Both the position numbers and the translations under genes were made by a program. DNA of 64,000 bases from Pontibacillus chungwhensis (GTDB lineage Bacteria; Bacillota; Bacilli; Bacillales; BH030062), in assembly GCF_030166655.1 (NCBI RefSeq), contig NZ_CP126446.1, forward strand, positions 372,001 through 436,000, written 5' to 3'. The notes below the pieces were generated by a model that worked only from the letters and a program-made list of their open reading frames with translations, made no database searches and was not told the origin of the DNA. Positions 41,498 through 56,069 of this stretch are shown piece after piece. The stretch's first letter is position 1. The number at the start of each line of letters is the position of its first letter.

Positions 41498-42490
41498 TTG
41501 GAGACCATCCAACAACTAACCCAACAACTCCACGACTGGGAAAACATGCAGGGCATTGATGAAGAAGAGGAAGAGCAGGAGTGGATTGGTGCGGGGATTG
41601 CTCTTTACGAGAAGATCATCAAAGTAGATAAAGAGAATAAAAGCGACTATCTACAGGAGCTCTCAAGACTTTATCTGAACTATGGAAGAAATGAAAAGAT
41701 GAAGTTTTCTAATTTCACACGTGCGGTGCGTCATTTAAAGCAAGCTGTCTATATTGATCCAGAAGATCCGAGGCCTTGCTACCATCTTTCTTTTTTGTTG
41801 ATGCGCCAAGATCATCCTGAAGGAGCGCTTTTTTACGCGGAGCGTGCCCTTAAGCTTGGACTTGATGATAAACAGACTTATAAACTGTTTTGTAATATGG
41901 CCCTCGGTTATTACAAACTGCTTTTACTTAAAGAATCATATGGTTACTTACTTAAAGTAGAAGAGAAGGCAAAGCAGGATCCGGTTCTCGGAGCGTTCTT
42001 AAAACCGTATCAAGCGACTATCAAAGGTTCTAAAAAGAAGGGATATGTTCCTCTTTCTGAACAACATGGAACGATTGTGGAAACAGAGGATGAATTGGAG
42101 GATCGTGTATCTGGTGGAGAATGCGTTGTCTTGATGATCCACCCTTACCGAACAGAACTTAACGGGGAAGAGGAGTGCGTCAGTTTTTCTTCCGTAAACG
42201 CGCAGATTTTAGAAGCGATCCTGTTGAGTGAGGGAGGCCTCACTGTGACTCAGATCTCTGGAGTTCTGTGGGGGTATAACGCAGTCGAAATGTCCCCTTC
42301 TTATGTCCCAAGGATGATGAACAAGATTCGTTCTGATCTCAAGAAAGCCACAGGGATCGATGGAAAGAAGCTTCTTAAGACAGACGGAAATTTATACGTT
42401 TGGGATCACACTATTTTAAAAGGAAACATCCATTATAAGAATCATAAGCGATCTGGTTCCAGGTCAAGAGAGGGGATTACAATTTTGTAA
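41498..42490 (+). CDS. TPR-repeat protein with C-terminal winged-helix-like domain
   Basis: About 330 residues, from TTG at 41498 with GAGGAG 8 bases upstream; the ATG at 41492 would leave only 2 bases. Residues about 35-160 are tetratricopeptide-like helices (FTRAVRHLKQAVYIDPEDPRPCYHLSFLL, EGALFYAERALKLG, ALGYYKLLLLKESYGYLLKV). The C-terminal 110 residues (SVNAQILEAILLSEGGLTVT, QISGVLWGYNA, SYVPRMMNKIRSDLKKATG, KLLKTDGNLYVW) look like an OmpR/SARP-type winged helix. A transcription or signalling role is inference. A terminator hairpin overlaps its last codons. Confidence 0.65.
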   Translation: METIQQLTQQLHDWENMQGIDEEEEEQEWIGAGIALYEKIIKVDKENKSDYLQELSRLYLNYGRNEKMKFSNFTRAVRHLKQAVYIDPEDPRPCYHLSFLLMRQDHPEGALFYAERALKLGLDDKQTYKLFCNMALGYYKLLLLKESYGYLLKVEEKAKQDPVLGAFLKPYQATIKGSKKKGYVPLSEQHGTIVETEDELEDRVSGGECVVLMIHPYRTELNGEEECVSFSSVNAQILEAILLSEGGLTVTQISGVLWGYNAVEMSPSYVPRMMNKIRSDLKKATGIDGKKLLKTDGNLYVWDHTILKGNIHYKNHKRSGSRSREGITIL

Positions 42491-42503
42491 TCCTCTTTCT
42501 TTT
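42469..42503 (+). terminator. Terminator overlapping the end of the TPR gene
   Basis: GGATTACAA (42474-42482) and TTGTAATCC (42485-42493) form a tight perfect stem extended by AGAG/CTCT, followed by TTCTTTT. The stop codon lies in the right arm. Confidence 0.75.
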
Positions 42504-42536
42504 ATACTAAGGGTAATAAATGAGGAGGCGATGGAT

Positions 42537-43325
42537 ATGAAGTCAAATTTATTATCTCTTGAAATGATGAATGGGCAGGAAAGGTTACACGAGGCACTTG
42601 AGATGAGAGGGTTTCTAGTCAAGAAGGAAGGACCGTTCTTAATGTTAGCAAGTGGAAGTTCAAAGAGGGACCTTAGGAGTTTGAAAATGCTTTTAAACAA
42701 ACTGCATATCCCAATCTTCTGGAATGGCGATCGTTTTCAACTGCTTACGAACAAGTTTCCAGTCATGATGATGAAGAAAATCACAGAGCACCGCGGGGAA
42801 GAGTTTCCTGTCAGTATGGAAGGGTATCATTTCAGATGGAGAGCATTCGTTAACCGGAAGAATGGACTTAAGGTAGATGCATTAGACCTGGACCCGCACA
42901 TTGCATGCTTCGTTAAAGCAGTGAACGAGGCGGGAATCCCTTGCCTGGCGGGATGTGATGGTCATTTGAAACATGCGCCTAACCTTCAGTTCTCCGGCGT
43001 ATATAGTGGAGCGTGGTTTCAGATTATCCAAGAGCAGTATCTTAGCGAATTTGAGCTGAACTATACCTGGAACGTAGAATTTAAAGGCGGTTCAGGCTCA
43101 CGACTCGTTGCTAGTAAAGCGCGCAACGAACGTTGGGATCGTCATAAAATTTATGAGGATACGTTAAAGATGGCGTACAAATTGAAAGAGCATGCTGATG
43201 AGATAAAGAAAAGGAAAGCGAGCAGCTTTAAGCGTAATGCCGGGATGAAGGAAGAGGCAGAAGGATTGCGTACGGATGGTCGCTTTGAGGAGTTGGTGGA
43301 TTGGATGGAGCGGTTGAGTAACTGA
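42537..43325 (+). CDS. Conserved-looking protein of unknown function (262 aa)
   Basis: I do not recognise this family. The ATG at 42537 has GAGGAGG 8 bases upstream; the ATG at 42531 is too close. The product begins MKSNLLSLEMMNGQERLHEA and has FLVKKEGPFLMLASGSSKRDL, LHIPIFWNGDRFQLLT, then RWRAFVNRKNGLKVDALDLDPHIA, and IPCLAGCDGHLKHAPNLQFSG (a possible small metal or ligand site). The C-terminus is a basic helix (RKASSFKRNAG). It is soluble, without signal or membrane segments. The segment YTWNVEFKGGSGSRLVASKA could bind a phosphate. It ends 24 bases before the first 52-bp array. Confidence 0.7.
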   Translation: MKSNLLSLEMMNGQERLHEALEMRGFLVKKEGPFLMLASGSSKRDLRSLKMLLNKLHIPIFWNGDRFQLLTNKFPVMMMKKITEHRGEEFPVSMEGYHFRWRAFVNRKNGLKVDALDLDPHIACFVKAVNEAGIPCLAGCDGHLKHAPNLQFSGVYSGAWFQIIQEQYLSEFELNYTWNVEFKGGSGSRLVASKARNERWDRHKIYEDTLKMAYKLKEHADEIKKRKASSFKRNAGMKEEAEGLRTDGRFEELVDWMERLSN

Positions 43326-43349
43326 GTCGTTGTCTTGAGGAGCAGTGTA

Positions 43350-43589
43350 TATCTTCCCTTTTGAAGAGAATAGAGGTCAAAAAGGTCACAGATTCGTTTA
43401 ATCTGTGACCTTTTATTGCGTTTAAAGGCTTGAAAGGTAAGAGAGGAAGGCTATCAATGACCTTTTGAGAGATTTATGTGCTGAAAAGGGAAGAGAAGGA
43501 CTCTCTCTGTTCCTTTTTCGGAGTATGGTAGAGGCAAAAGGGAACAGAAGCGCCAGGGCGGGACTGGGTACCTGACACCCCGTCCCGCC
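43350..43589 (+). repeat. 52-bp array A: four units plus terminal GGGAC hairpin
   Basis: Four 52-bp units fill 43350-43557. The first G of each AAAAGG half-site lies at 43384, 43436, 43488 and 43540; CCTTTT half-sites start at 43357, 43409, 43461 and about 43513. The second hairpin is perfect: AAAAGGTCACAGATT (43380-43394), loop CGTTT, and the complementary arm 43400-43414. The array ends in a stem GGCGGGAC (43557-43564) / GTCCCGCC (43582-43589) enclosing GGGTACCTGACACC. It fills the gap between two convergent genes. Confidence 0.93.
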
Positions 43590-43600
43590 GCTCCCCGGCC

Positions 43601-44506
43601 CTATTCAAAATACGCCCACTGATTCACGCTTTTCATCGTAAAATGCTTCTGCAGAACGCTTCTAATCCTCTTGAGACTTCCAAGCTGCCCGCACCATTCA
43701 TAAACGATTTGTGTCTTGATTTTCTCTTCAGGAAACAGCAACTGTAATTCTTCAACGCTTCGCAAGATCGCTTGGCTGGATTTTTCTTTGGCACCACAGC
43801 TCTTGCATATACACTTATGACCCTCAACCTCAACGGATAAGGAAGAGCATTGGAGGCAGGTAATCCCTTTTCGTAAATTATCAAATGTATAAGAAGGTGT
43901 TTCATTTAAGGAAGAATCAGTGATGTGGAGCGCATGGAGCTCTTCTGCTAATTTCTTATGGAAAGAGGTTAGTGGAGAAGAGGTCTTCAGTTGGTCTAGA
44001 AAAGATGTTAACTGTGTTGGGAATATGATGGTTGGTGTGAGTGGTGCTTGGTAAAGGTGGAAATGGGGATTGATAAAGATGACATACCCTTCGATAGGGA
44101 GGGTGTATCCTTGTGATTTTAACAGTTGACCTAGTAATGAGGTAGCTCTTTGCAGCTGGTGGAGAGGGTTTAGAATCTCGTTTTTCGGTAAACGGTAGAA
44201 TTGATTGTCTTCGTAAATAAAGTCCCCTTCATAATTCTTAATTTCAAAGAGATAGATTTTCTCAGAAGTAATCATAAGCGTATCGATTTGAAACGTCGTG
44301 TTTTGTTTTTTGAGTAAGAGGTCGTGAAGTAAATAAGCTTCATTGGCGAGAGGTTCTATAAAATGATCGAATCGTTGTTCTCCTTCGAATCCTTTCAGCC
44401 AGCGGGCATAATCGCTGCTTGCTTTGGAGGATAGAGAAGTTCTTTTTTGTAGGGTTTCTAGAATGGTTAAGTGGGAAGGTTTCGTTCGAGGTTTGTATAG
44501 CGGCAT
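43601..44506 (-). CDS. NERD-domain protein
   Basis: A 301-residue protein with the nuclease-related NERD domain (about 36-155): LKGFEGEQRFD, QIDTLMITSEKIYLFEIKNYEGDF with D75 and E88-x-K90 in PD-(D/E)xK spacing, and NPLHQLQRATSLLGQLLKS. The C-terminal part has a four-cysteine zinc ribbon (CLQCSS...CICKSCGAKE, about 215-240). NERD proteins are thought to process nucleic acid; the exact role is unknown. ATG at 44504-44506 with AAAGGAA upstream. Two 52-bp arrays flank it (A on its 3' side, B on its 5' side). Confidence 0.88.
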   Translation of the reverse strand: MPLYKPRTKPSHLTILETLQKRTSLSSKASSDYARWLKGFEGEQRFDHFIEPLANEAYLLHDLLLKKQNTTFQIDTLMITSEKIYLFEIKNYEGDFIYEDNQFYRLPKNEILNPLHQLQRATSLLGQLLKSQGYTLPIEGYVIFINPHFHLYQAPLTPTIIFPTQLTSFLDQLKTSSPLTSFHKKLAEELHALHITDSSLNETPSYTFDNLRKGITCLQCSSLSVEVEGHKCICKSCGAKEKSSQAILRSVEELQLLFPEEKIKTQIVYEWCGQLGSLKRIRSVLQKHFTMKSVNQWAYFE

Positions 44507-44569
44507 TTCTTCATTCCTTTCTTGAAGAGGCTAACTAGAGTATAGCACATGGGCTTATCGGGCGTCTGA

Positions 44570-44809
44570 TCTATTACCTTTTAGAGAGAAGATCTTTCAA
44601 AAAGGGAAGAGAGGGGGCTGATCTGTGACCTTTTGATAGATAAAAGCGTTCAAAAGGTAAGAGATAGGGGCAATCAGTGACATTTTACTACTTAAAAGCC
44701 TTCAAAAAGTAACAGAAGACCGTTATCTATGACCTTTTCCTAACAAAAAGCCATCAAAAGGTAACAGACTCCCCAGGCGGGACTGGGTACCTGACACCGC
44801 GTCCCGCCT
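44570..44809 (+). repeat. 52-bp array B: four units plus terminal GGGAC hairpin
   Basis: Four units fill 44570-44777. AAAAGG phase positions are 44604, 44656, 44708 (AAAAAG here) and 44760, each 52 apart; CCTTTT sites lie 27 bases before each. The closing stem is AGGCGGGAC (44775-44783) / GTCCCGCCT (44801-44809) with the core GGGTACCTGACACC. It lies in the divergent gap between the NERD and UPF0182 genes, so it is not tied to transcript 3' ends. Confidence 0.92.
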
Positions 44810-44865
44810 CACACCTCCCGCGCCCGACACCCCTTCCAAACACCGCAAGACCCCGATCTAAAAAA

Positions 44866-44906
44866 TTGATCAAACGTTTGATCAACACAAACATTAGCAC
44901 TATGAT
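44866..44906 (+). promoter_or_regulatory. 20-bp palindrome over the -35 box of the UPF0182 promoter
   Basis: TTGATCAAACGTTTGATCAA at 44866-44885 is a perfect palindrome. Its right half supplies the -35 box TTGATC (44878-44883), followed by a 17-base spacer and TATGAT (44901-44906). A dimeric repressor, of TetR type by shape, could block this promoter. The same 20 bases recur at 54300-54319. Confidence 0.75.
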
Positions 44907-45005
44907 TGAAGTCCCACGAGCATTTCGTTATATTCAATATAGATTCACGAAACATTTTAGAACCTCAATCGTATAGTTAGATAGAGAGAAAAAGGAGGCG
45001 ATGGT

Positions 45006-47813
45006 TTGGATAATGAAACAAGTAATGTCAGAGGGTTTCCCTCTGGTGGGAATAAAAAGATGAAAAAGTTTGGCGGATGGTTTGGGAAAATTGCGCTTGT
45101 CGTGGTTGTTCTCTTGGTTCTCACCCTCTTGTCTCTAAGCTGGATTACAGAGTACATATGGATGGGGAGTGTGGGCTACCAGGATTCCTACATGACGATT
45201 TTAACAAGCAAGTTTATGCTTGGAATCGTTGGTTTTATCCTGTTTGCTGTCTGTACGTATATTACGTTTAGTTGGGTAAGGAAATCGTATTTAAGGCACT
45301 TTACGGAAGGGCAGCTGCCAACTCTTGTAACGAGTAAAAAGTGGAGTCGCTCATTGGTTCTTCTTCTGGCCTTAATCATCGGTCTAATCGGAAGTACAAT
45401 TGTACAGGGGATAGGATGGGAACCATGGCTTAAGTTCTTAAATTACGAGCCGTTTGGTGTGAGCGATCCCCATTTTGATCGCGATGTGTCATTCTACATG
45501 TTCGTATTACCATTCATTGAATTTGCACTATCCACTGTGCTTGGTCTTGCGATTTTCTTCTTATTTGTGGAAATCGGATTGTATTCCGTCTTCACTATGT
45601 ATCGCACAAGCCGAACAGCGCAAGTCCATCTTGGTACGACGCTTGCGATTATTGGTGTTCTTCTTGCAGCGCAGCACGTGTTTGAACCGTTTTATTCACT
45701 TCTAACAAATCGAGTGAACGTAGCGCAACAAAGTGTTGTCCATGGTTTAAGCTACACCGATGATGTCATTAACAATCCAGCCTCATACGTGCTAGCTGGT
45801 GTGGCCCTCTTAGGAACAATTTGGGTCATTATTTCGCTGTTCCGCGGCAAATGGAAGAGCATGATTCTGCCGATTATTTTGTATATCGTTGTAGGGATTG
45901 TAGCGCAGGGGGCTTCGATGATTGTTCAGAACTTCGTTGTATCGCCAAATGAATTCTCGAAAGAGCGTCCGTATTTGGAAGAGAACCTGGCTATGACCAG
46001 GACGGCTTATGAGCTTGAAGATATGACAGAAGCTCAGCACCCGGGAGCAGATACGCTAGACCGGGAAATGGTAGAACGGAATCAGGATACCATTAATAAT
46101 GTGCGCATTAACGATAGTCGTCCGATTTTGGATGTGTACAATCAGCTTCAAACGTTCCGTACGTATTATGAATTTAATGATATCGATATTGATCGTTACA
46201 ACATTGACGGGGAGTATCAGCAAGTCTTCCTTGGTGCCCGTGAGCTGAATACATCAGACTTACCGTCCCAAGCTCAGACGTGGGTGAACCAAAACCTTCG
46301 TTATACGCACGGGTACGGGCTTGCAATGAGTAATGTGCATGAAATTACCCCACAAGGGCAGCCGGAATACATGGTTCAGAACTTGCCTCCACAAGGGGAA
46401 CTTGAGATTACACGACCTCAGGTGTACTTCGGGGAAGAGCAATATGACACGGTTGTTGTAAATAGTGGAGTCGACGAGTTTGATTACCCTTCTGGTGATG
46501 AGAACAAGTCGAACCGATTTGAAGCAGACACAGGAATCCCGCTTTTAGGTATTAATCGCGCGCTCTTTGCACTTGATGAAGGGTCGTTCCGTTTATTCGT
46601 GTCAGATCAAGTAACAGGTGACAGTCAAATGCTTCAGACGCGAAACATTATGGATCGCGTTGAGCGCATTGCTCCGTTTCTTCAGTATGATGAAGATCCG
46701 TATATTTTCGTAAGAGATGATGGCACGATGGCCTGGATGATTGATGCATATGTAACAGAAAGCAATTATCCGTATTCGGAAGCCTATGAAGGTAGCAAAA
46801 ACTATATTCGTAACTCTGTTAAAGTAACAGTGGATGCTTATACAGGGGAAACGACGTTCTACGTTGTTGATCCTGATGAACCGCTCCTTCAGACATACAG
46901 AAACATCTTCCCGGAACTGTTCACAGAAGAGGTACCAGAAGATGTGCGTAATCACTTCCGTTATCCAATCGACCTATTCAAGGTTCAGTCTCAGCTTTAT
47001 CAGACGTACCACATGACGAATCTTGAAGTCTTCTATAACCGCGAGGACTACTGGGAGATTCCGACGGAGAAATACTTCAACGAAGATGTAACGATGGAAC
47101 CGTACTACGTGACCATGCGTCTTCCTGAAGCAGAGGAAGAGGAATTCGTTCTAATGACGCCATTTACACCACGAAATCGTCAAAATATGATCGCCTGGAT
47201 GGGCGTCCGAAACGATGGTGATAACTACGGTGATATGATGGTTTATGAATTCCCTAAACAAGAAAACGTCTATGGGCCGCAGCAGATTGAGAACCGGATT
47301 AACCAGGATAGTGATATATCTCAGCAGTTGAACCTCTGGTCTCAAGGTGGCTCTGAAGTTATCCGCGGGAACTTACTCGTTCTGCCGATTGAGGATACCA
47401 TCCTTTATGCGGAACCGATCTATATCAAATCATCCAATGAAACGTCTCTACCAGAAGTGAAGCAGGTGATTGTCGCTTATCAGAACCAGATTGTGATGGA
47501 GCCGACCTTTGACCGTGCTTTAGAAGTCTTGTTATCCCGCATTGATCCGGACAGCGAAGCGCCGGAAGGAGAAGGGGAGCAAGGAGAGACGCCTGATACA
47601 GGTGAGATGCTTGAATCGAGCCAAGTGCTTCAGCAAGTATCCGACCTATTCGATCAGTATCAGGAACAAACGTCAGAAGGAAATTATCAAGAAGCCGGGC
47701 GAATTATGGAAGAGATTCAGTCTCTACTTGAGGAAGCTCAACAAGAGCAACAACCTTCAGAGCCAACAGAGGTTGAAGGTGAAGAAGAGTCAACGGATAG
47801 TCCGGAAGAATAA
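45006..47813 (+). CDS. UPF0182 family membrane protein
   Basis: A 935-residue protein with about seven N-terminal membrane helices (residues about 20-300) and a large extracytoplasmic domain. Recognisable family segments are SWITEYIWMGSVGYQDSYMTIL, GWEPWLKFLNYEPFGVSDPHFDRDVSFYMFVLPF and YTHGYGLAMSNVHEITPQGQPEYMVQNLPP. The function of the family is unknown. The C-terminal tail (about 855-935) is very acidic and rich in Glu and Gln. It starts with TTG at 45006 after AAGGAGG (44992-44998); an in-frame ATG at 45060 is a weaker alternative. Probably controlled through the palindrome at 44866. Confidence 0.93.
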   Translation: MDNETSNVRGFPSGGNKKMKKFGGWFGKIALVVVVLLVLTLLSLSWITEYIWMGSVGYQDSYMTILTSKFMLGIVGFILFAVCTYITFSWVRKSYLRHFTEGQLPTLVTSKKWSRSLVLLLALIIGLIGSTIVQGIGWEPWLKFLNYEPFGVSDPHFDRDVSFYMFVLPFIEFALSTVLGLAIFFLFVEIGLYSVFTMYRTSRTAQVHLGTTLAIIGVLLAAQHVFEPFYSLLTNRVNVAQQSVVHGLSYTDDVINNPASYVLAGVALLGTIWVIISLFRGKWKSMILPIILYIVVGIVAQGASMIVQNFVVSPNEFSKERPYLEENLAMTRTAYELEDMTEAQHPGADTLDREMVERNQDTINNVRINDSRPILDVYNQLQTFRTYYEFNDIDIDRYNIDGEYQQVFLGARELNTSDLPSQAQTWVNQNLRYTHGYGLAMSNVHEITPQGQPEYMVQNLPPQGELEITRPQVYFGEEQYDTVVVNSGVDEFDYPSGDENKSNRFEADTGIPLLGINRALFALDEGSFRLFVSDQVTGDSQMLQTRNIMDRVERIAPFLQYDEDPYIFVRDDGTMAWMIDAYVTESNYPYSEAYEGSKNYIRNSVKVTVDAYTGETTFYVVDPDEPLLQTYRNIFPELFTEEVPEDVRNHFRYPIDLFKVQSQLYQTYHMTNLEVFYNREDYWEIPTEKYFNEDVTMEPYYVTMRLPEAEEEEFVLMTPFTPRNRQNMIAWMGVRNDGDNYGDMMVYEFPKQENVYGPQQIENRINQDSDISQQLNLWSQGGSEVIRGNLLVLPIEDTILYAEPIYIKSSNETSLPEVKQVIVAYQNQIVMEPTFDRALEVLLSRIDPDSEAPEGEGEQGETPDTGEMLESSQVLQQVSDLFDQYQEQTSEGNYQEAGRIMEEIQSLLEEAQQEQQPSEPTEVEGEEESTDSPEE

Positions 47814-47820
47814 AGAAGAG

Positions 47821-47855
47821 AATGCCTGCCCCCTTGATTGGGGCAGGCATTTTTT
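47821..47855 (+). terminator. Terminator after the UPF0182 gene
   Basis: AATGCCTGCCCC / GGGGCAGGCATT arms with a short loop, then TTTTT. Confidence 0.93.
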
Positions 47856-47899
47856 GTGGGAGTTGTGGGCCCGGTCCCTTGTCCCTTTTGGATACTTGA

Positions 47900-48138
47900 T
47901 CTGTGACATTTCAAGATAAATCAAAGACAAAAAGGTCACAGATCTAGCCGATCTGTGACCTTTTGTTGCACTTAAAAGCTTAAAAGGGAAGAGAAGAGGG
48001 CGATCTATGACCTTTTCATGGTTTTAGAAGCCTAAAAGGTAACAGAAGCCCGCTCTCTGTTCCCTTTTCTAAGTGAAATGGATGCGAAAGGTAACAGAGG
48101 CACTCGACTGGGACGAGGGACCTGACCCCGATTCCCGC
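47900..48138 (+). repeat. 52-bp array C: four units plus terminal GGGAC hairpin
   Basis: Units fill 47900-48107 with AAAAGG phase positions 47934, 47986, 48038 and 48090, all 52 apart. AAAAGGTCACAGATC (47930-47944) pairs perfectly over TAGCC with the arm at 47950-47964. The closing motif GGGACGAGGGACCTGACCCC starts at 48110 and CCCG closes at about 48138. A GGTCCCTTGTCCC segment lies 15 bases before the first unit. Convergent gap between the UPF0182 gene and metA. Confidence 0.92.
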
Positions 48139-48146
48139 GCTATCGC

Positions 48147-49076
48147 TTAAATACTCCAAGAATCCACCGAGTCCCACTCATAAGGAGTCTCCTGATAGAC
48201 ACAATAATTCAACCAATTCGAAAATAGCAAATAAGCTTGTGATCGCCAGCGGTTGAGCGGTTTCTGATCTGGATCATCGTTTGGATAATATCCTGTTGGG
48301 ACGTTCACATCGAGTCCCTTTGCCACATCCCGCTCATATTCTTCTGCGAGCGTCGTCGACTCATACTCAATATGCCCTGTAATCATGACGTGCTTCTCAT
48401 CTTTTGACATCATTAATAGCGCTCCAGCTTCCTTCGAAGAGGCGAGTAACGTCAATTGATCGTTTGCGAGAATCTCTTCTTCTGATACATCGGTGTAGCG
48501 TGAATGGGGGGCCAGAAAGGCATCATCCATTCCACGGACTAATTTATTCGTTTCATTCATAATACGGTGTTGAAAGACGCCGGATATTTTCTCAGGAAGT
48601 TCATATTTCCGAATCCCGTAATGGTGATACAGTGCGGCCTGTGCACCCCAACAAATGTGCAGAACAGAGGTAACGTTCGTTTTTGTCCATTCCATAATTT
48701 GAGTGAGTTCTTCCCAGTAAGCTACCTCTTCAAAAGGCAGCTGCTCGACAGGGGCCCCTGTAATGATCATTCCATCATAGTTCTTTTCTTTGATTTCGTC
48801 ATACGTTTTGTAGAACTGTGATAAATGAGATTTACTAATATTTTTGGATTCATATGTAGATGTGTGAATGAATTCGACGTTTACTTGTAATGGGGAATTA
48901 CTGAGTAAACGTAACAATTGGCGTTCGGTTTTCTCTTTCTCTGGCATTAGGTTCAAGATGAGAATATTCAACGGTCGAATATCCTGCTTACTAGCACGAG
49001 GGTCTTCCATGAGGAAGATGTTTTCTTTCTCTAAAATGTCTTTAGCCGGTAGTGTCTCAGGTATATTAATAGGCAT
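48147..49076 (-). CDS. metA: Homoserine O-acetyltransferase MetA (MetAA)
   Basis: Acylates homoserine in methionine synthesis, 309 residues. The catalytic cysteine is C142 in [16 protein letters not shown]. The residue that sets acyl-CoA choice is E111 in [14 protein letters not shown]; glutamate here goes with acetyl-CoA, glycine with succinyl-CoA, by published work on the family. That numbering holds with the start at [11 protein letters not shown] (49074-49076), which also has the better distance to AAGGGGTGA than the ATG two codons upstream. A TGTTATAAT extended -10 box lies about 45 bases upstream. No SAM riboswitch was found. Confidence 0.95.
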
Positions 49077-49268
49077 ATGCATTCACCCCTTATCTAAACT
49101 TTTTCAATATTTCATCTATTATAACAAAAGAATATGATCCTACCACATGAAAATTCTTAGGCGGTGAGGCTTCTCCACCCATTCGTCCCTACCGTAAAAA
49201 GGGCGTACCCGTCCCTTCTAACCTTAATAAACTAATAGTGTCATTCTAGAAAGATTGGAGGCAAAAAG

Positions 49269-51248
49269 ATGAATCCTGATATTTGTTTTTTGATTGAGAA
49301 TGGAGCGACTGTGAGTTGTTTCTTGTCAGATGAAGAGGGGAACCCTGTGCGTACTGATGCGATAACATGTGAGGAAGTGGGGGATCGTGAGGATGTTCTA
49401 TATACCCTGCCTGACGGACAAGAAGTGACATTACAGAATGTCTTTATTCAGAAACAAGGTTTCGTTGTAGTCGAAATCAATGGAGAAGACGGCGGGTGTT
49501 TGTCTAATCCGATTCCTTTTATGCTATTCGAACAACTGCTCCTTTGTGCACCACAGGGAACTGAAGTTGAATGTGAGGCAACGAAATTTAGATGTAGGGC
49601 AAGTGTTGTCTGTCGCAATGGTGAATTTATTTCGGTTAAATTGTGGATTGAAACGTGCCAGAATGTGCAAGTGGTGGCGGAAACTTGCCTCGAAATAGAA
49701 GGGAGGGTATGTGCCCCGAGGCCGCTGATGGAACCGGAGCAAACGTGTTTGCCGCTTACTAAAAAATCTTCTAAACCAATGATCTCTGGTACTTGGAAAT
49801 CCCCTTCACAGAAATATCCTCATGCTATCCGCGCAAACAAGGTCTATGACTGGGTCATTTTTAACCAGAAAGAGGAGCGAACGATCCCTGCTGATGAGGT
49901 TGATTTTACTTGTTCACCGTGTGAGGTTGGGTTGTTTGTACCCGCTACGATTATTTGTAGCCGTGAACTGTCTGGAAATGTGAGGTGTGGTGGAGCACCA
50001 ATCGTGGGGGCTGAGGTAACGTTATCCTCTGATTCTGTCCGTGTGACTTTTGATATGAATCCAGTCTATACAGATGAGCATGGAAACTTTACAGTGGTGG
50101 CAAATGTAGAAGTTGGAGTTCCTGAAGATGCTACTATTACAGCCACTACTACCATTGATGAAGTGGAGTATTCGATTACCCTGCCTACGAAAATCTCCTG
50201 TCGTTCGGAAGAATGTGTATTGTTCGTATTTGAGCCTGATCTTCTTGAGTGTAATGGGGTACTAGAAGGTAGAGTTAGGTGTGGGGAGACCTTGATTGAA
50301 GGGGCTGTAGTAACCTTTAATAGCAATGACACAAACGTTACAGTGACCCCTGATTCGGACACTACAGGCACAAATGGAAACTTCCTAGTCGGTTTATCTG
50401 CAACTCCTGGAACTTCTGGAGCGGCAACTATTACAGTTACCGCCTCATTCGATGGAAATGTACTGATGCAAGATGTACTTGTTAATTATAACTGTCCTAG
50501 TCAAACATGTAGTCTTACACTTGACCCTCTGCCTGCGCTCATTACGTGTACGGGTAATATAAGTGGAAACATTAGCTGTGGAAACGTAGGTCAGGAAGGT
50601 GTAGAGATTACTTTTACAGCTATTCCTAGCGTTGTTACGATTCCACCGACTATGTCGGATGTAAATGGTGATTTTGAAGCACCTATAACAGTACTTGAGG
50701 GTATTGATAACACATCCGTTCTTATTACGGTTAATGCTGAAGGGTTAGGAGTATCGATGTCAGTAGGGACAAATGTAATTTGCTTACCTCCTGAATGCCC
50801 ATGTAAATTCCGTATTGGAATAGCTGGCAATAGCGCCAGGGCAACAGTTAACGTGGTGGATAATGGAACTCCTCGAACACTTACAGGTGATATTAATGTA
50901 TCCTCTGTTCAATGCTTTATAGCTGGTCCTGGATGTAACCCGGCAGTAGATAACTTTAACGTGACGTTTGGTGGTAATCAAGGAAGAACGATTAACTTTA
51001 TTGGTGGTAGAAGAATTATAATTTCGTGCGAAGACAATACTGTAGCCAGAGTCTTCGGAACTGCACGAGCTCAAGGGAATGTATTTACAGGAATATTCGA
51101 AGTCACGATTGAACTTACGATTGGAGCGGGTAACATTGGTACATGGGTGGTAGAAGCGAATGATGTCTTTGGAAATTCATTTGAAACAACGTTCACTGCA
51201 CCTATTAGTCCAATTACCTTTATTGGGGATTGTGATGATATTCCTTAA
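49269..51248 (+). CDS. Cysteine-rich Ig-like repeat protein, unknown (659 aa)
   Basis: No family recognised with certainty and no signal peptide visible. An N-terminal domain of about 210 residues has many cysteines (VSCFLSDEEG, CEATKFRCRASVVCRNGEF). Three beta-sandwich repeats of about 95 residues follow, each opening with a C-x5-7-G-x3-C pattern: CSRELSGNVRCGGAPIVGAE, CNGVLEGRVRCGETLIEGA and CTGNISGNISCGNVGQEG, then a V-x-F core and a G-N/D-F strand as in Big/CarboxypepD regulatory-like domains. The last domain begins CPCKFRIGIAGNSARAT. A coat or surface structural role is inference. Start ATG with GGAGG upstream. Confidence 0.75.
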   Translation: MNPDICFLIENGATVSCFLSDEEGNPVRTDAITCEEVGDREDVLYTLPDGQEVTLQNVFIQKQGFVVVEINGEDGGCLSNPIPFMLFEQLLLCAPQGTEVECEATKFRCRASVVCRNGEFISVKLWIETCQNVQVVAETCLEIEGRVCAPRPLMEPEQTCLPLTKKSSKPMISGTWKSPSQKYPHAIRANKVYDWVIFNQKEERTIPADEVDFTCSPCEVGLFVPATIICSRELSGNVRCGGAPIVGAEVTLSSDSVRVTFDMNPVYTDEHGNFTVVANVEVGVPEDATITATTTIDEVEYSITLPTKISCRSEECVLFVFEPDLLECNGVLEGRVRCGETLIEGAVVTFNSNDTNVTVTPDSDTTGTNGNFLVGLSATPGTSGAATITVTASFDGNVLMQDVLVNYNCPSQTCSLTLDPLPALITCTGNISGNISCGNVGQEGVEITFTAIPSVVTIPPTMSDVNGDFEAPITVLEGIDNTSVLITVNAEGLGVSMSVGTNVICLPPECPCKFRIGIAGNSARATVNVVDNGTPRTLTGDINVSSVQCFIAGPGCNPAVDNFNVTFGGNQGRTINFIGGRRIIISCEDNTVARVFGTARAQGNVFTGIFEVTIELTIGAGNIGTWVVEANDVFGNSFETTFTAPISPITFIGDCDDIP

Positions 51249-51260
51249 AATATGAAGATA

Positions 51261-51293
51261 AAAGCGCCTGGTGTGAATCAGACGCTTTTTTTG
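51261..51293 (+). terminator. Terminator after the Cys-rich repeat gene
   Basis: AAAGCG-CTG / CAG-CGCTTT arms around GTGTGAAT, followed by seven T. Confidence 0.85.
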
Positions 51294-51358
51294 TGTTGCT
51301 AGGGGACTGACTGGTTCCTTGTCCCAATTTCTCCTGAGGTGATGAGAAATGAGTAGAA

Positions 51359-51595
51359 TCTATGCCCTTTTAACAAAAATAACGGTTGAAAAGGTCACAG
51401 ACCCAGCCGATCTGTGACCTTTTTCAATAGTTAGGAGTTCAAAAGGTAATAGAGGAAGGGTCTCTCTTCCCTTTTCAGAGTTTTGAAGACTCAAAAGGTA
51501 ACAGAAGACCGCTATCTGTGCCCTTTTCTTACTAAAATAGCTTCAAAAGGGAACAGATGCGACCAGCTGGGACGAGGGACGTGACCCCCTGGCCC
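51359..51595 (+). repeat. 52-bp array D: four units plus terminal GGGAC motif
   Basis: Units fill 51359-51566 with AAAAGG phase positions 51393, 51445, 51497 and 51549, all 52 apart. The second hairpin pairs AAAAGGTCACAGA (51389-51401) with TCTGTGACCTTTT (51411-51423). The end motif is GGGACGAGGGACGTGACCCC from 51569, its stem poorer than in A and B. A GTCCC segment is at 51321-51325. This copy sits between two genes of the same direction. Confidence 0.9.
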
Positions 51596-51690
51596 TGAAT
51601 TTGATAAAAATCCCATCCCATATTCTCCTCTATATTATGTTAAGATTACAAATGTTACAGAATCATTACATACACCAAGGAGGCACATCA

Positions 51691-54261
51691 TTGAGATTAA
51701 GATCTATTATTGTAGCCCTCATCGTAGGACTACTTTTTCTGACTTCAACAGAACGGGTCATTGCTGAAGAGGATCAGGATTTTCAGGACCTTGTTCGTTT
51801 CGATGAAGAGATTCATTATTTAAGAGATTCAGGAGTTGTGAACGGGTTTACGGACACGCTCTTCTACCCAAAGGCACCGATTAAACGAATTGATGCTGTT
51901 CGAATGATTATGCGTGAATTGGATCCCGATTTAGAAACTGTTGAAGACCCTGGATTTACGGATGTATCGAAGGACCATGATGCTTATAAAGCAGTTGCAA
52001 AAGCAAAAGAGCTTGGCATTATTGACGGAATGGGCGACGGGACCTTTCAACCGGAAGGGAAACTGACTCGCGCTCAAATGGCTAAAATTCTTGTGAATGC
52101 GTATAAGCTGGAAGGAACGTATGAAGAGTCGTTTGAAGACCTTTCAGAAGATTACTGGGGCTACTCGTATATCAGCACCCTTGCCCATCATAAGATTACG
52201 ATTGGGTATACGGACGGAACGTTTCGCCCAACCAAAGAAATCAGTCGCCAGAATTTCTCGGCGTTCTTAGCCAGGCATTTAAATGATTACTTTAAACCGA
52301 ATCAGGAAACACCGGAGCTAAGCGTCGAAGCGGTAAACAATACAACTGTAAGACTAACGTTCGATCAGCCCGTGAGCCATGTGAAAACCTCAGGTGCGAT
52401 TGAAGGAATTCGCTATGGAATGGATGTAAAAGGCTATGAGTCCATTACGAAAGTAAACGACTCGGTTTATGAGGTTCATTTCCCATTCCCTTTATATGAG
52501 TACCAGGAGTTCATGATCGATTATGGACAGATCACACAAGGAACGACGTTTATAGAAGATGAAGATGGCAATCCACTGCGCGGCGGGGTTTACCCATTCT
52601 CTCATGAGGATACAACTCCTCCGGAAGTAACGGGAATGACATATAAAGATCAGAATGAAATCGTTGTGAGCTTCTCAGAGCAGGTTCAAGAGCTACAAGC
52701 AGGAGATCATATTCGCTATGCACTATCATCGGAAGAGCATGGAAATATGGCGATTAACCATGCGACGTTAAATGAAAAAGGGGATAAAGTAACCCTTGAA
52801 ACAGCTTCTTCCCTAACTGGTAGCCAGACGTTTACCCTGTTTGTAAATGGGATTGTCGATTATTCTCAAAACGAGAATGAAATGGAGCCTCAATCGATTA
52901 CAGAAACATTTTCAAGCATGGAGAAAGCTCCATTGGTAGATTTCACGTGGCTTTCACCAGATTCAACCGATGTTTCTCTACAAGATTCTCAAACAGCCTA
53001 TATTCTGTTTGTAGAAGAAATGGAAGAGAGCGCATTATTAGATCAGAGTCATTATAACGTTCAGACAAAAGACGGGGATAGGCTTTCGGCTGATGAGTTT
53101 ACCCTTTCTCATGTAGCGGATCATCAAGGAGTCTTAATTGAATCCAAAAATGATTCGATTGCCGGAGGCACAGTAGTCGTTTCAGGTATTCCTAACCACA
53201 GTGGTCAGGTTATGAGAGAGACGACAGCTCATATTCCAGAGCAACCAACTAAACCAGCCCTTGAGGATATTGTGATTGATGACGATGGACATATCCACCT
53301 TCGCTTTAACCAAAAGCTAAAAGAAGCTGATTTCCGCGATTTCGCCGTTTCTGTAAATGATGAGCCTTATCGGGAGACGGAAATGAGCATGAGCACTTTA
53401 ACCAACAAGCGTGGTAAAGGAACGATTAACCTGTATCCTCTTCTGCCCATAGACGAGAGCGAAATCGCAGATGGACTTCTGCGTGTGCAATCTGTACAGA
53501 ATGCAGCGGTGGACCCATCAACTCAAGAAGAGACCTCAGGTACGAAAACTCTTCTAGGCGAACAGGTTGATTTGGAACCTGTCGTTGTACTAGACAGTAG
53601 CAAACCAAAGTTAATGCGCAAGCCCGATTCTATTGCAACACGAGACTTTAATGAGAATGGAAACATCGATCATATCCAGCTATTCTTCCAAGAGCCAATC
53701 GATCCAAACTCTGTGCATAAGGATCAGTTCGAGGTTGAAGGATATACCATTACGGATGTGAAAGTCGGCGGTAGGGTAACGGATTACGAAGAGCTCGATT
53801 CTTACACGGCAGACCGACTTGTTCAGATCACCGTTCAGGAATTAGAAGAGGTTGATGGATATAAACAGCCGAAAGTAACGGTCCGAGAAGGATTGAGAGA
53901 TCTGGCTGGGAATGTCTTCGATGGTGTGGAAAACAAAGAAGCAAAAGACCGCGTTCAACCGATGATTTTTGTAGTCGGGGATCAGGCAAACGATACGGTA
54001 ACGGTTATATTCTCAGAGCCTATTGGTTCTGGAATTGAAGAGGTTCACCTATCAGACGGTGCTATCTATGACACGTCGACCGCAATCAAGCTCTATAATG
54101 AAGGCTTCGAAGACCCTATAGGCCTTGCCTTTGAGACGATTGCAGTAGATGATCTTTATTCGGTGGAGTATATCATTGAGCCGAATACGATCACAGATGT
54201 TCACGGCAACTATGTAGAAGAAGGTACCTATCCAATCTATCCAATAGAGAATATGCAGTAA
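51691..54261 (+). CDS. Secreted S-layer-homology (SLH) surface protein
   Basis: About 856 residues from TTG at 51691, which has AAGGAGG 7 bases upstream; the longer reading from 51601 lacks a site. A signal peptide (RLRSIIVALIVGLLFLTSTERVIA) precedes three SLH domains: residues about 35-85 (IHYLRDSGVVNGFTDTLFYP), about 95-150 (AKELGIIDGMGDGTFQPEGKLTR) and about 155-200 (YISTLAHHKITIGYTDGTF). These bind pyruvylated cell-wall polymer. The rest (about 210-856) is a chain of Ig-like/SLAP-type beta modules with segments such as VRLTFDQPVSHV, IVVSFSEQVQ and TVIFSEPIGSG. A cell-wall anchored structural protein; partners unknown. Confidence 0.9.
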   Translation: MRLRSIIVALIVGLLFLTSTERVIAEEDQDFQDLVRFDEEIHYLRDSGVVNGFTDTLFYPKAPIKRIDAVRMIMRELDPDLETVEDPGFTDVSKDHDAYKAVAKAKELGIIDGMGDGTFQPEGKLTRAQMAKILVNAYKLEGTYEESFEDLSEDYWGYSYISTLAHHKITIGYTDGTFRPTKEISRQNFSAFLARHLNDYFKPNQETPELSVEAVNNTTVRLTFDQPVSHVKTSGAIEGIRYGMDVKGYESITKVNDSVYEVHFPFPLYEYQEFMIDYGQITQGTTFIEDEDGNPLRGGVYPFSHEDTTPPEVTGMTYKDQNEIVVSFSEQVQELQAGDHIRYALSSEEHGNMAINHATLNEKGDKVTLETASSLTGSQTFTLFVNGIVDYSQNENEMEPQSITETFSSMEKAPLVDFTWLSPDSTDVSLQDSQTAYILFVEEMEESALLDQSHYNVQTKDGDRLSADEFTLSHVADHQGVLIESKNDSIAGGTVVVSGIPNHSGQVMRETTAHIPEQPTKPALEDIVIDDDGHIHLRFNQKLKEADFRDFAVSVNDEPYRETEMSMSTLTNKRGKGTINLYPLLPIDESEIADGLLRVQSVQNAAVDPSTQEETSGTKTLLGEQVDLEPVVVLDSSKPKLMRKPDSIATRDFNENGNIDHIQLFFQEPIDPNSVHKDQFEVEGYTITDVKVGGRVTDYEELDSYTADRLVQITVQELEEVDGYKQPKVTVREGLRDLAGNVFDGVENKEAKDRVQPMIFVVGDQANDTVTVIFSEPIGSGIEEVHLSDGAIYDTSTAIKLYNEGFEDPIGLAFETIAVDDLYSVEYIIEPNTITDVHGNYVEEGTYPIYPIENMQ

Positions 54262-54265
54262 AAGA

Positions 54266-54297
54266 AACATGTAGCCTTATTAGGCTGCATGTTTTTT
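54266..54297 (+). terminator. Terminator after the SLH gene
   Basis: AACATG-AGCCT / AGGCT-CATGTT arms with a TATT loop and a T6 tail. Confidence 0.9.
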
Positions 54298-54299
54298 AA

Positions 54300-54319
54300 T
54301 TGATCAAACGTTTGATCAA
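54300..54319. promoter_or_regulatory. Second copy of the 20-bp palindrome
   Basis: TTGATCAAACGTTTGATCAA, identical to 44866-44885. Here it lies just after the SLH terminator and no good -10 box follows at 17 bases on either strand, so it looks like an orphan operator or a marker of a duplicated segment. Confidence 0.7.
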
Positions 54320-54371
54320 GAGGAATTTATCATGCGGTTGTCTAGAGTTGTCCATGTGTTTGAGGTCAGGA

Positions 54372-54632
54372 TCTATGACTTTTCCGAGAGAATAATGAAG
54401 AAAAAGGTCACAGAGTCAGCCGATCTGTGACCTTTTCATAGCTTCGCAGATGTAAAAGGGAAGAGAAGAGGGTGATCTGTGACCTTTTCATAGCTTCACA
54501 GATGTGAAAGGGAAGAGAGGAGTGCTATCTGTTCCCTTTTCTTATGAAAAATCACACAAAAGGTAACAGATGAAGAAAAGCGGGGCCAGGGACCTGACCC
54601 CTCGTCCCGCGGGACAAGGGACCCGTCCCCCC
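54372..54632 (+). repeat. 52-bp array E: four units plus terminal hairpin
   Basis: Units fill 54372-54579 with AAAAGG phase positions 54406, 54458, 54510 and 54562, all 52 apart. AAAAGGTCACAGA (54402-54414) faces TCTGTGACCTTTT (54424-54436). The end hairpin GCGGGGCCAGGGACCTGACC... runs 54580-54610, closed by CGTCCCGC. A further GGGAC...GTCCC pair follows at 54611-54632. Convergent gap between the SLH gene and the DUF1700-like gene. Confidence 0.91.
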
Positions 54633-54637
54633 ATCCC

Positions 54638-55387
54638 TCAACTATGTTGCTCTCTCTTCGACACAATCAATAGATAAAGACCAACCAACGCAAGGGGGAG
54701 GGTCCCGGAAACGATGAGCTTTGTATCCTCTGCAATACTTGTCATATCAATAAACACCCTTGGGAGGAACCAAAGAAGAGGGATGATAATGGTTACCCAT
54801 GATTTACTCCATAGAGCGACTCCGATAAAGACGGAGATGGAAACAGCGACTGCTAGAATGACGCCAACGGTTCCAAATTCAATAGAAGGGGTTTCAAAAA
54901 AGCGATCTACATAATAAATAACGATAAATAAGGATGCAGGGATCATTCCAACGAGGGATAAAAAGAGCCATTGCTTGGTTTCGGATAATGAGCTGGTTGC
55001 TAAATATCTAAAAGCAATTCTAAACATAATAAAAAGGTTGATAAATAAAATTAAGGGATAGCCGATGAGTTCAAGCAAGGAATATTCCATAGTACCGCGA
55101 ATCGCGTCATCTATTAGTATAAATGAAAAGGCACCAAGGAAGATAATAGGGATATACTTTAACACTCCAGTAAGGTCAAATGGCATTTCATCTGCTACTT
55201 GATTCATGTACTCTTTTGGGGACTGCCCGATGATTTCTTCTACATCTTTCCCGTGCTTCTCAGCCTCGTGTAAATGATCTTTTAGCTCTTCAACGATTTC
55301 ATTAATTTCTTGTTCATTTTTTCCACTGGATAATAAGTAGACTCTCAGGTTATCTAGAAATTGCTGACTTTCCTTAGACACTTTCAT
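54638..55387 (-). CDS. DUF1700/HAAS-type membrane protein
   Basis: A 249-residue protein. Residues 1-70 are a helical HAAS-like domain (SKESQQFLDNLRVYLLSSGKNEQEINEIVEELKDHL-type, with EAEKHGKDVEEIIG), and residues about 75-245 hold six or so membrane helices. Such proteins are often encoded next to PadR regulators and their HAAS domain may bind the regulator or a kinase. The ATG (55385-55387) has AAGGAAG upstream and lies 5 bases after the padR stop, so the two genes form one leftward operon. Confidence 0.85.
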   Translation of the reverse strand: MKVSKESQQFLDNLRVYLLSSGKNEQEINEIVEELKDHLHEAEKHGKDVEEIIGQSPKEYMNQVADEMPFDLTGVLKYIPIIFLGAFSFILIDDAIRGTMEYSLLELIGYPLILFINLFIMFRIAFRYLATSSLSETKQWLFLSLVGMIPASLFIVIYYVDRFFETPSIEFGTVGVILAVAVSISVFIGVALWSKSWVTIIIPLLWFLPRVFIDMTSIAEDTKLIVSGTLPLALVGLYLLIVSKREQHS

Positions 55388-55392
55388 TTTCG

Positions 55393-55719
55393 TTATCCTT
55401 CCTTTCTTAATAAAGAATCAACACTACCAGAAATAGCACTCCATCTCTTCTTGAACTCTTCTAATTCGTCCTCGCCTTTTTTTGTTAACGAGTAATATTT
55501 ACGTTTCGGTCCGCCTGAGGGCACTTTCTTCTGAGTGGTTGCGACAAGCCCTTCTTTCTTCATACGGAGTAAGAGTGGATAAATGCTTCCTTCCTTGACC
55601 ATGGTGAACCCATGGGTATGGAGCTTCTCCATCATTTCATAGCCATACGTTTCCCCTTTTCCAATGATGGATAGGAGACACCCTTCTAAGATTCCTTTCA
55701 GTATCTGACTCGAAGACAA
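55393..55719 (-). CDS. PadR family transcriptional regulator
   Basis: A 108-residue winged-helix repressor. Seen: GCLLSIIGKGETYGYEMMEKL, VKEGSIYPLLLRMKKEGLV (recognition helix region), and KKVPSGGPKRKYYSLTKKGEDEL forming the wing, then a short dimerisation helix. It starts with TTG (55717-55719), with AAGGAGG 8 bases upstream; the nearby ATG is out of frame. It probably represses its own operon through two palindromes at 55754-55832. The effector is unknown; PadR/DUF1700 pairs often answer to membrane or drug stress. Confidence 0.92.
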   Translation of the reverse strand: MSSSQILKGILEGCLLSIIGKGETYGYEMMEKLHTHGFTMVKEGSIYPLLLRMKKEGLVATTQKKVPSGGPKRKYYSLTKKGEDELEEFKKRWSAISGSVDSLLRKEG

Positions 55720-55753
55720 TTCATTTCCTCCTTGGTTGATTTATACAAGTGAA

Positions 55754-55776
55754 ACTATATTGTTATGCAAGATAGT
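55754..55776. promoter_or_regulatory. Putative PadR operator 1
   Basis: ACTATATTG, five bases TTATG, CAAGATAGT: a 23-bp near-palindrome with one mismatch between arms, 35 bases upstream of the padR start. PadR proteins bind dyads of this size next to their own gene. Confidence 0.7.
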
Positions 55777-55809
55777 GGGGCTAAAAAATAAGCGATACAA
55801 GTACATGTT

Positions 55810-55832
55810 ACTACTTTGTAATGCAATATAGT
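55810..55832. promoter_or_regulatory. Putative PadR operator 2
   Basis: ACTACTTTG, five bases TAATG, CAATATAGT: same plan and same centre (T-A/T-ATG) as operator 1, starting 56 bases away. The rest of the 400-base gap between padR and the HAD gene contains no gene that I can support. Confidence 0.65.
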
Positions 55833-56069
55833 TTAAAGATAATATACATATGATGGAATTTCAAGTCTAATTATTTATGGAAATAATTTCCTTGACTTAA
55901 AGTGAGGTGGGTACTGGAATAAAGCTTCTGCTGGTGAAGTGGAGAAAGCAGGCTTTCATAAAAAAGGGGCTCGCTGTTAAGAGTGTGAAGGTTAATGGGG
56001 GTGGGAAAATCATCATCGCTTGCCATTATTAATCTTGATGATGTTAAATCATAACGTTTGCTGAAATAG

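Follow-up and report, generated by a model that had tools for sequence, protein, structure and literature searches.

Arrays of eight alternating half-sites in Pontibacillus chungwhensis: a four-unit variant of the 52-nt repeats of Bacillus and most likely a protein-binding array

Architecture and genomic position of the arrays

The window analysed here is a stretch of 64,000 nucleotides (positions 372001-436000, handle G000:C1) of the 4.17-Mb genome of Pontibacillus chungwhensis. Five intergenic gaps of the window contain the arrays A to E, and a gene for a NERD-domain protein lies between A and B (Table 1). Each array spans 199 bp and is composed of eight 13-bp half-sites of alternating orientation, R (TCTGTKMCCTTTT) and L (AAAAGGKMASAGA), which repeat with a period of 52 bp in the order R-17-L-9-R-17-L-9-R-17-L-9-R-17-L. 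The bases vary among the five arrays and the spacing is constant: as stated in the original prediction, the L half-site (AAAAGG...) recurs at 52, 52 and 52 bp (15/15 intervals exact), and CCTTTT is found 27 bp ahead of AAAAGG. The likeness of whole elements unit by unit is also seen, with AGCCGATCTGTGACC common to C, D and E in a gapless alignment; resembling elements lie mostly within the same cluster. No chains of half-sites were found in the base-shuffled window (five shuffles), and the L-9-R pattern with up to 3 mismatches occurs at no fewer than 65 places in the P. chungwhensis genome, compared with 2 for the reversed control. Tandem Repeats Finder reported three of the five arrays in the 64-kb window.

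Table 1. Positions (window coordinates) of the arrays, the GGGAC-type hairpins and the NERD gene
Feature	Position	Strand	Remarks
Array A	43350..43548	no strand	R-L-R-L-R-L-R-L, four 52-bp units; convergent gap
GGGAC hairpin after A	43557..43596	no strand	separate REP-like repeat
NERD-domain protein gene, 301 aa	43601..44506	-	between A and B; candidate partner; Pfam PF08378, 75 bits
Array B	44570..44768	no strand	four units; divergent gap, NERD gene / UPF0182 gene
GGGAC hairpin after B	44776..44815	no strand	separate REP-like repeat
Array C	47900..48098	no strand	four units; convergent gap
GGGAC hairpin after C	48107..48146	no strand	separate REP-like repeat
Array D	51359..51557	no strand	four units; tandem gap
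GGGAC hairpin after D	51569..51595	no strand	read from sequence; separate REP-like repeat
Array E	54372..54570	no strand	four units; convergent gap
Two GGGAC-type hairpins after E	54579..54647	no strand	29-bp tandem pair; separate REP-like repeat

Based on the sampled regions, rather than the entire genomes, of three Pontibacillus genomes (G000, G005 and G006), 75 chains of half-sites were counted (25, 23 and 27, respectively). Exactly four units had been predicted for every copy; this is true of all five window copies and of 52 of the 75 chains, while two chains are longer (9 and 10 half-sites) and 21 are shorter, one of them (G000 1269876) being clipped by the edge of the sampled region. A variable unit number had been named, as had an existing repeat family (see below), as a finding that would speak against the prediction: it is seen in other genera, where arrays have about 3 to 30 units, and Pontibacillus mostly keeps to four. 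Within the 52 complete elements, the step from L to R is 22 bp in 155/156 intervals and the step from R to L is 30 bp in 189/208 (29 bp in 16, 31 bp in 3). The chains are largely non-coding, since 65/75 share at most 30 bp with any ORF of 80 aa or more. Decayed copies are under-counted because the elements were found through their half-sites. Concerning the distribution across species, L-9-R sites with up to 2 mismatches number at least 63, 61 and 51 in the three carrier genomes, and 0-1 among the matches listed for five other Pontibacillus genomes (G001-G004 and G007). Halobacillus salinus contains one chain of eight half-sites and one of six, and Ornithinibacillus massiliensis one run of 15 half-sites. 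Positions 8 and 10 of the half-site are interdependent in 37 Pontibacillus elements (C with C or T, A with G), as if there were two binding modes or two related proteins.

A GGGAC-type hairpin begins 10-11 bp past every window array, reading GGGGC in E, and had been taken as the closing part of the element. It is present within 70 bp of 34/75 chains, on the 5' side of 19 and on the 3' side of 20, and therefore neither closes nor orients them. The claim that all copies point the same way is unsupported for the same reason and for another: eight alternating half-sites make the element dyad-symmetric, without a direction of its own. The hairpin occurs at 68/6095 random positions; among gaps of at least 100 bp, it is found in 39/71 with an array and in 15/95 without one (Fisher P 1e-7), an association which is inflated because array gaps are longer (median 414 vs 233 bp). 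Often near arrays but on any side of them, the hairpin constitutes a separate, REP-like repeat. Its likely owner is a REP-type tyrosine transposase, the gene of which (L029:6217-6987, minus strand; G000 3642716-3643486) lies among GGGAC doublets and adjoins the array at 3642410; it scores 72.4 bits with NCBIfam NF047646, under the cut-off of 80.

With a simple ORF rule, the array-bearing gaps are convergent in 30 cases, tandem in 29 and divergent in 12, compared with 10, 56 and 29 for array-free gaps of at least 100 bp under the same rule, so the arrays favour gene ends. The view that they are not simply terminators is upheld. In G000, 51% of the chromosome is free of arrays; with P 0.091 over 7 clusters, no replication bias is claimed (the origin was placed at the contig start by eye, from a DnaA-like translation).

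The 52-bp class and its dyad core

The original prediction knew of no described family of this form. Such a family, the 52-nt tandem repeats of Bacillus, is already in print (Subirana and Messeguer 2021, PMC8161180). As far as the available text of that paper describes them, a survey of 176 Bacillus genomes found repeats of constant length (52 nt or 20-21 nt) and variable sequence; the 52-nt repeats occur in Bacillus and other Firmicutes (about 30% of Bacillus species) and form several families per genome with species-specific short signals, often accompanied by their reverse. They are said there to have no sequence conservation, their function is given as unknown, and a polymerising protein or a small RNA is proposed for them (PMC8161180). 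Neither Pontibacillus nor Halobacillus is named in the main text.

The Pontibacillus arrays share with these repeats, as characterised in the same available text, a period of 51-53, a non-coding location, species specificity and signals with their reverse complement. A repeat length of 51-53 nt is found in 15/15 window intervals and in the 22 + 30 bp spacing of the 52 elements. At least four repeats, with at least 60% of equal length, are seen in the five window elements and 52/75 chains (by counts of R-L units). The L and R half-sites are the short signals with their reverse, and other genera have different half-sites. For the families per genome, the G000 search covered a single half-site family, and Tandem Repeats Finder covered the 64-kb window. 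On visual comparison, the arrays of genome G217 agree with the B. coagulans consensuses in print. There are also differences: the Pontibacillus form mostly stops at four units, the units of one element differ strongly in their spacers, and a single half-site family occurs dispersed in the form of whole elements. The Pontibacillus element is a four-unit, dispersed variant of a published, unexplained class.

An element model based on sequence only, with six candidates scored per genome, matched at least 56/397 Bacillales genomes, belonging to 28/135 genera, at E 1e-4; outside Bacillales, weak matches were found in 3/198 genomes of a phylum sample. The matched arrays of other genera have different sequences and the same 52-base period. 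In contiguous stretches of 400 kb (Tandem Repeats Finder, periods of at least 20), 17/29 arrays of G217 have a period of 52, 53, 156 or 260, and 13/17 of G285 a period of 52, 104 or 156; both stretches were picked at earlier matches. In a stretch where no match was known (G120:C1:1000001-1400000), 11/29 arrays have a period of 52, 104 or 156. Seven more in this stretch have a period of 20-21, which is the other size class described by Subirana and Messeguer.

To compare arrays, one consensus was made for each and near-duplicates were removed, which gave 36 families (the N-masked 'family' L293 was excluded beforehand). Symmetric runs exceeded those of shuffled sequences at P 0.05 in 23/36 families, including 10/14 from G217 and G285, and likewise in 16/21 published consensuses. 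The dyad is centred on a base in 35/36 families and in 18/18 published consensuses of length 52. Counting from the dyad, the 35 families are A-rich at positions 17-14; position 12 is G in 60/70, position 11 is T in 47, position 10 is C in 44, position 5 is A in 44, and position 0 is G or C in 60. Among the 14 families from G217 and G285, the G, the T and the C are found in 20, 23 and 21 of 28 cases, respectively. The Pontibacillus half-site AAAAGGTCACAGA agrees with this dyad profile base by base.

GTC with a gap of 19 is the top triplet-gap pair of the published consensuses (7/21; P 0.003 under a relabelling that keeps the dyad). The result is weaker when coagulans is left out (5/18; P 0.043 under the strict null), and the GTC core is absent from 14/21 published families. 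The same pair ranks first in the G217 and G285 families (10/14) and is present in 6/22 families which were found by pattern or model. In raw DNA, it comes first in G120 (7 arrays) and, as the complement GAC with a gap of 27, in G285; in G217 the top pair is CTT with a gap of 21 (10 arrays), and GTC with a gap of 19 is found in 6. It also ranks first (13) in 26 further arrays found by the model. A three-unit core pattern with one mismatch occurs at 2409 places in 33/123 Bacillales genomes (21/75 genera), compared with 28 places in 6 genomes for the reversed control. What is new here is a dyad core, GTC-N19-GAC flanked by A/T-rich bases, that arrays of otherwise unlike sequence have in common.

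Two further patterns were searched in the 397 genomes: one in which 24 bases were fixed and two gaps left free matched 8 (reversed control in one), and another with free gaps but 18 fixed bases was uninformative, as it matched 385/397 genomes via terminators. A phage or plasmid origin was rejected: blastn of element C against phages and plasmids gave no match, and the viral contigs contain 0 exact instances of the CCTTTT/AAAAGG geometry and one match of the GTC core pattern (one array, reversed control 0). That match is a 52-bp array of the AAATGTC...GACATTT type in an IMG/VR contig (L357:3480-3720), possibly a prophage edge or host DNA.

Half-site constraint and explanations of the arrays

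In the 37 perfectly spaced elements, half-sites of the same slot agree between copies at 0.79, compared with 0.305 for the 17-bp and 0.324 for the 9-bp spacers (0.263 and 0.252 are expected from composition). In seven best-matching pairs between species, which are non-independent and were chosen through half-sites, identity is 514/560 core positions vs 411/665 spacer positions. From centre to centre, the A/T tracts are spaced by 21 and 31 bp, or two and three turns. Together with the 52-bp repeat, this places all putative contacts on one face, and the earlier suggestion of one-face protein binding (52 bp being about five helical turns, with near-rigid spacing) remains plausible.

We consider it moderately probable that each element is a double-stranded DNA array with eight half-sites for one sequence-specific, self-associating protein; judged from sequence, a one-faced protein-binding array is the most likely form. 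Two half-sites facing across the dyad (L-9-R) would be a putative dimer site, and with such sites every 52 bp, about five turns, four dimers could lie side by side. We infer the binding of a protein itself, and that one protein family would act across genera; a nucleoprotein structure would then form locally in gaps poor in genes, for the most part at the 3' ends of genes. Candidates for this protein are the NERD-type nuclease-like protein encoded between arrays A and B or else some nucleoid protein. The protein-array explanation is drawn from the rigid spacing, the conservation of half-sites against near-random spacers, the shared GTC-N19-GAC core and the absence of covariation described below. 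Counting against it are the CTT top pair in the raw DNA of G217, the families lacking the core, the weaker result without coagulans, the match of L and R in G120 and G285 and the transcription of the B. coagulans repeats (both below; PMC8625621, as far as the available part of that source goes).

As an alternative, which we regard as unlikely, the arrays could lack a host function and be repeats of the REP/BIME kind, selfish or neutral, that a transposase has spread along with the GGGAC hairpins. Alternating inverted units, fixed spacing, an intergenic location and many copies are shared with the REP/REPIN/BIME elements and their RAYTs, the REP-type transposase gene and GGGAC doublets are near one array, and hairpins and arrays share gaps at the frequencies given above. 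The arrays also cluster, resemble their neighbours and are patchy between species. However, the hairpin association is inflated by the length of array gaps, there is no covarying hairpin stem, and half-sites are constrained at loci common to three species. Y1_Tnp matches are found in 16/16 genomes, with and without arrays, including the array-poor Pontibacillus, and G217 has only one broken fragment. A RAYT as the driver was set aside, as transposase matches in these 16 genomes do not follow the presence of arrays. Concerning other repeats, the bcr1-like MITEs of the Bacillus cereus group, in the descriptions available, are likewise short dispersed intergenic elements with inverted ends; the Pontibacillus arrays differ by their internal periodicity of eight half-sites. 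CRISPR arrays share repeat blocks and variable spacers of fixed length, but the half-sites studied here are short, degenerate and alternating and the copies are dispersed; Pfam scans of 8 proteins from the window and of 30 encoded next to arrays found no cas family.

A transcribed RNA with stacked hairpins, acting as a small RNA or sponge as suggested by Subirana and Messeguer, seems quite improbable to us. The half-sites are inverted repeats, and in the named structures 84-85% of cells are paired vs 38-58% when slid; L and R agree within families, and the same authors obtained RNA-seq reads from B. coagulans 52-nt satellites, according to the part of the source available (PMC8625621). On the other hand, pairing within Pontibacillus is no better than in shuffles. 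None of the 16 R/L pairings exceeds |z| 2.74 in 52 elements, and both signs occur. In a 22-element alignment, the covariation score of a structure with three hairpins and an outer stem is equalled in 56/500 shuffles, and that of four R-L hairpins in 256/500. The absence of covariation within Pontibacillus elements speaks for a protein that binds double-stranded DNA rather than for an RNA hairpin. The half-sites which face each other in G087 are unlike (CATTAG vs TAATAG) and match below shuffled ones (z -4.9); in the pooled units of G120 and G285, L and R match above shuffles (z +7.4 each), which mixed families can produce, but a hairpin can too. An Rfam scan of the window positions 42000-56000 gave no match up to E 1. 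An RNA structure is thus unsupported within species by three covariation analyses.

Intrinsic DNA curvature, with A/T tracts in helical phase and no dedicated protein, is very improbable: the tract distances near 2 and 3 turns and the A/T-rich positions 14-17 from the dyad are consistent with it, but G, T and C at 12, 11 and 10 and A at 5 are conserved at least as much as the tracts, and curvature alone requires none of them.

For the protein-array explanation, the shared dyad core and the fixed spacing would turn the enigma of the 52-nt repeats into a testable problem of protein-DNA recognition, and the core offers a single search pattern for the whole class. The Pontibacillus form, with four units and randomised spacers, may be used as a natural saturation mutagenesis which shows the bases that matter.

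The NERD-domain gene and other neighbours

A profile search of the sampled DNA found eight full NERD homologues (G000, G005, G006, G217, G281, G138, G037 and G285), most of them in DNA sampled because of an array; only the G285 gene is from a stretch which was not array-centred. The D...(D/E)xK motif is retained in these proteins (D75 in 8/8, E88 in 7/8 with D in one, K90 in 8/8), as are four Cys residues in 8/8 (zinc ribbon). An array is located 6-74 bp past the stop codon in 8/8 full NERD genes (52 bp in G000), and in G109 a NERD fragment lies 51 bp from an array and next to an ORF for an IS-type integrase. Outside Pontibacillus, the 35 array loci with neighbours listed include four with a full NERD gene, two of which are one locus in two species, and one with a fragment. 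No close NERD homologue was found beside 26 arrays in 16/18 further 20-kb pieces (18 further genomes); piece L367 contains a distant NERD-like ORF (30.6 bits) 2.4 kb from an array, and piece L276, in which there is no array, a weak NERD match (19.9 bits). No NERD homologues were found on plasmids at E 1e-15 or in viral contigs.

The AlphaFold2 model of the NERD protein (pLDDT 87.7) contains the NERD domain and a C-terminal helix-helix-helix-strand-strand segment, which we read as a predicted winged helix. Foldseek gave no match to the model at E 0.001 or better (best 1.1e-3 and above). The best matches are, as we assume, largely restriction-endonuclease-like folds, e.g. Nt.BspD6I, Can2 and AddAB. 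The position of the gene beside arrays makes the NERD protein a candidate partner and a lead, and gives a named protein to test.

A bolder and tentative reading, which we think has a rather low chance of being right, is that the NERD-zinc ribbon-winged helix protein and the 52-bp arrays belong together as the two parts of a chromosomal system of Bacillales which has so far gone unrecognised. The protein would be a sequence-specific nuclease or nickase; its dimer would read GTC-N19-GAC and hold the arrays at five-turn phase, and the protein would create, homogenise and spread the arrays by cutting and copy repair. The NERD gene would then lie between arrays like cas genes by CRISPR or RAYT genes by REPs.

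In G000, G005 and G006, the UPF0182 gene has an array on either side (both loci were reached without the motif), and the position of array B beside it is also occupied by an array in G005 and G006. In G001 and G007 the UPF0182 gene has no arrays and different neighbours, and an empty orthologous site with conserved neighbours was not found in these two genomes. Beside the UPF0182 gene of the array-free G001 (L358:7868-8029; also L236), there is a tandem duplication of about 51 bp which combines a GGGAC-type hairpin with an A/T stretch. An identical 22-bp palindrome, AATTGATCAAACGTTTGATCAA, is present in two gaps of the window (44864-44885 and 54298-54319), and in G005 and G006 it recurs close to the UPF0182 gene; it resembles a repressor operator. 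The genes around arrays D and E (49269-51248 and 51601-54261) encode proteins with Ig-like repeats and S-layer (SLH) domains, and the 30-unit array of G036 also adjoins an SLH/subtilase gene.
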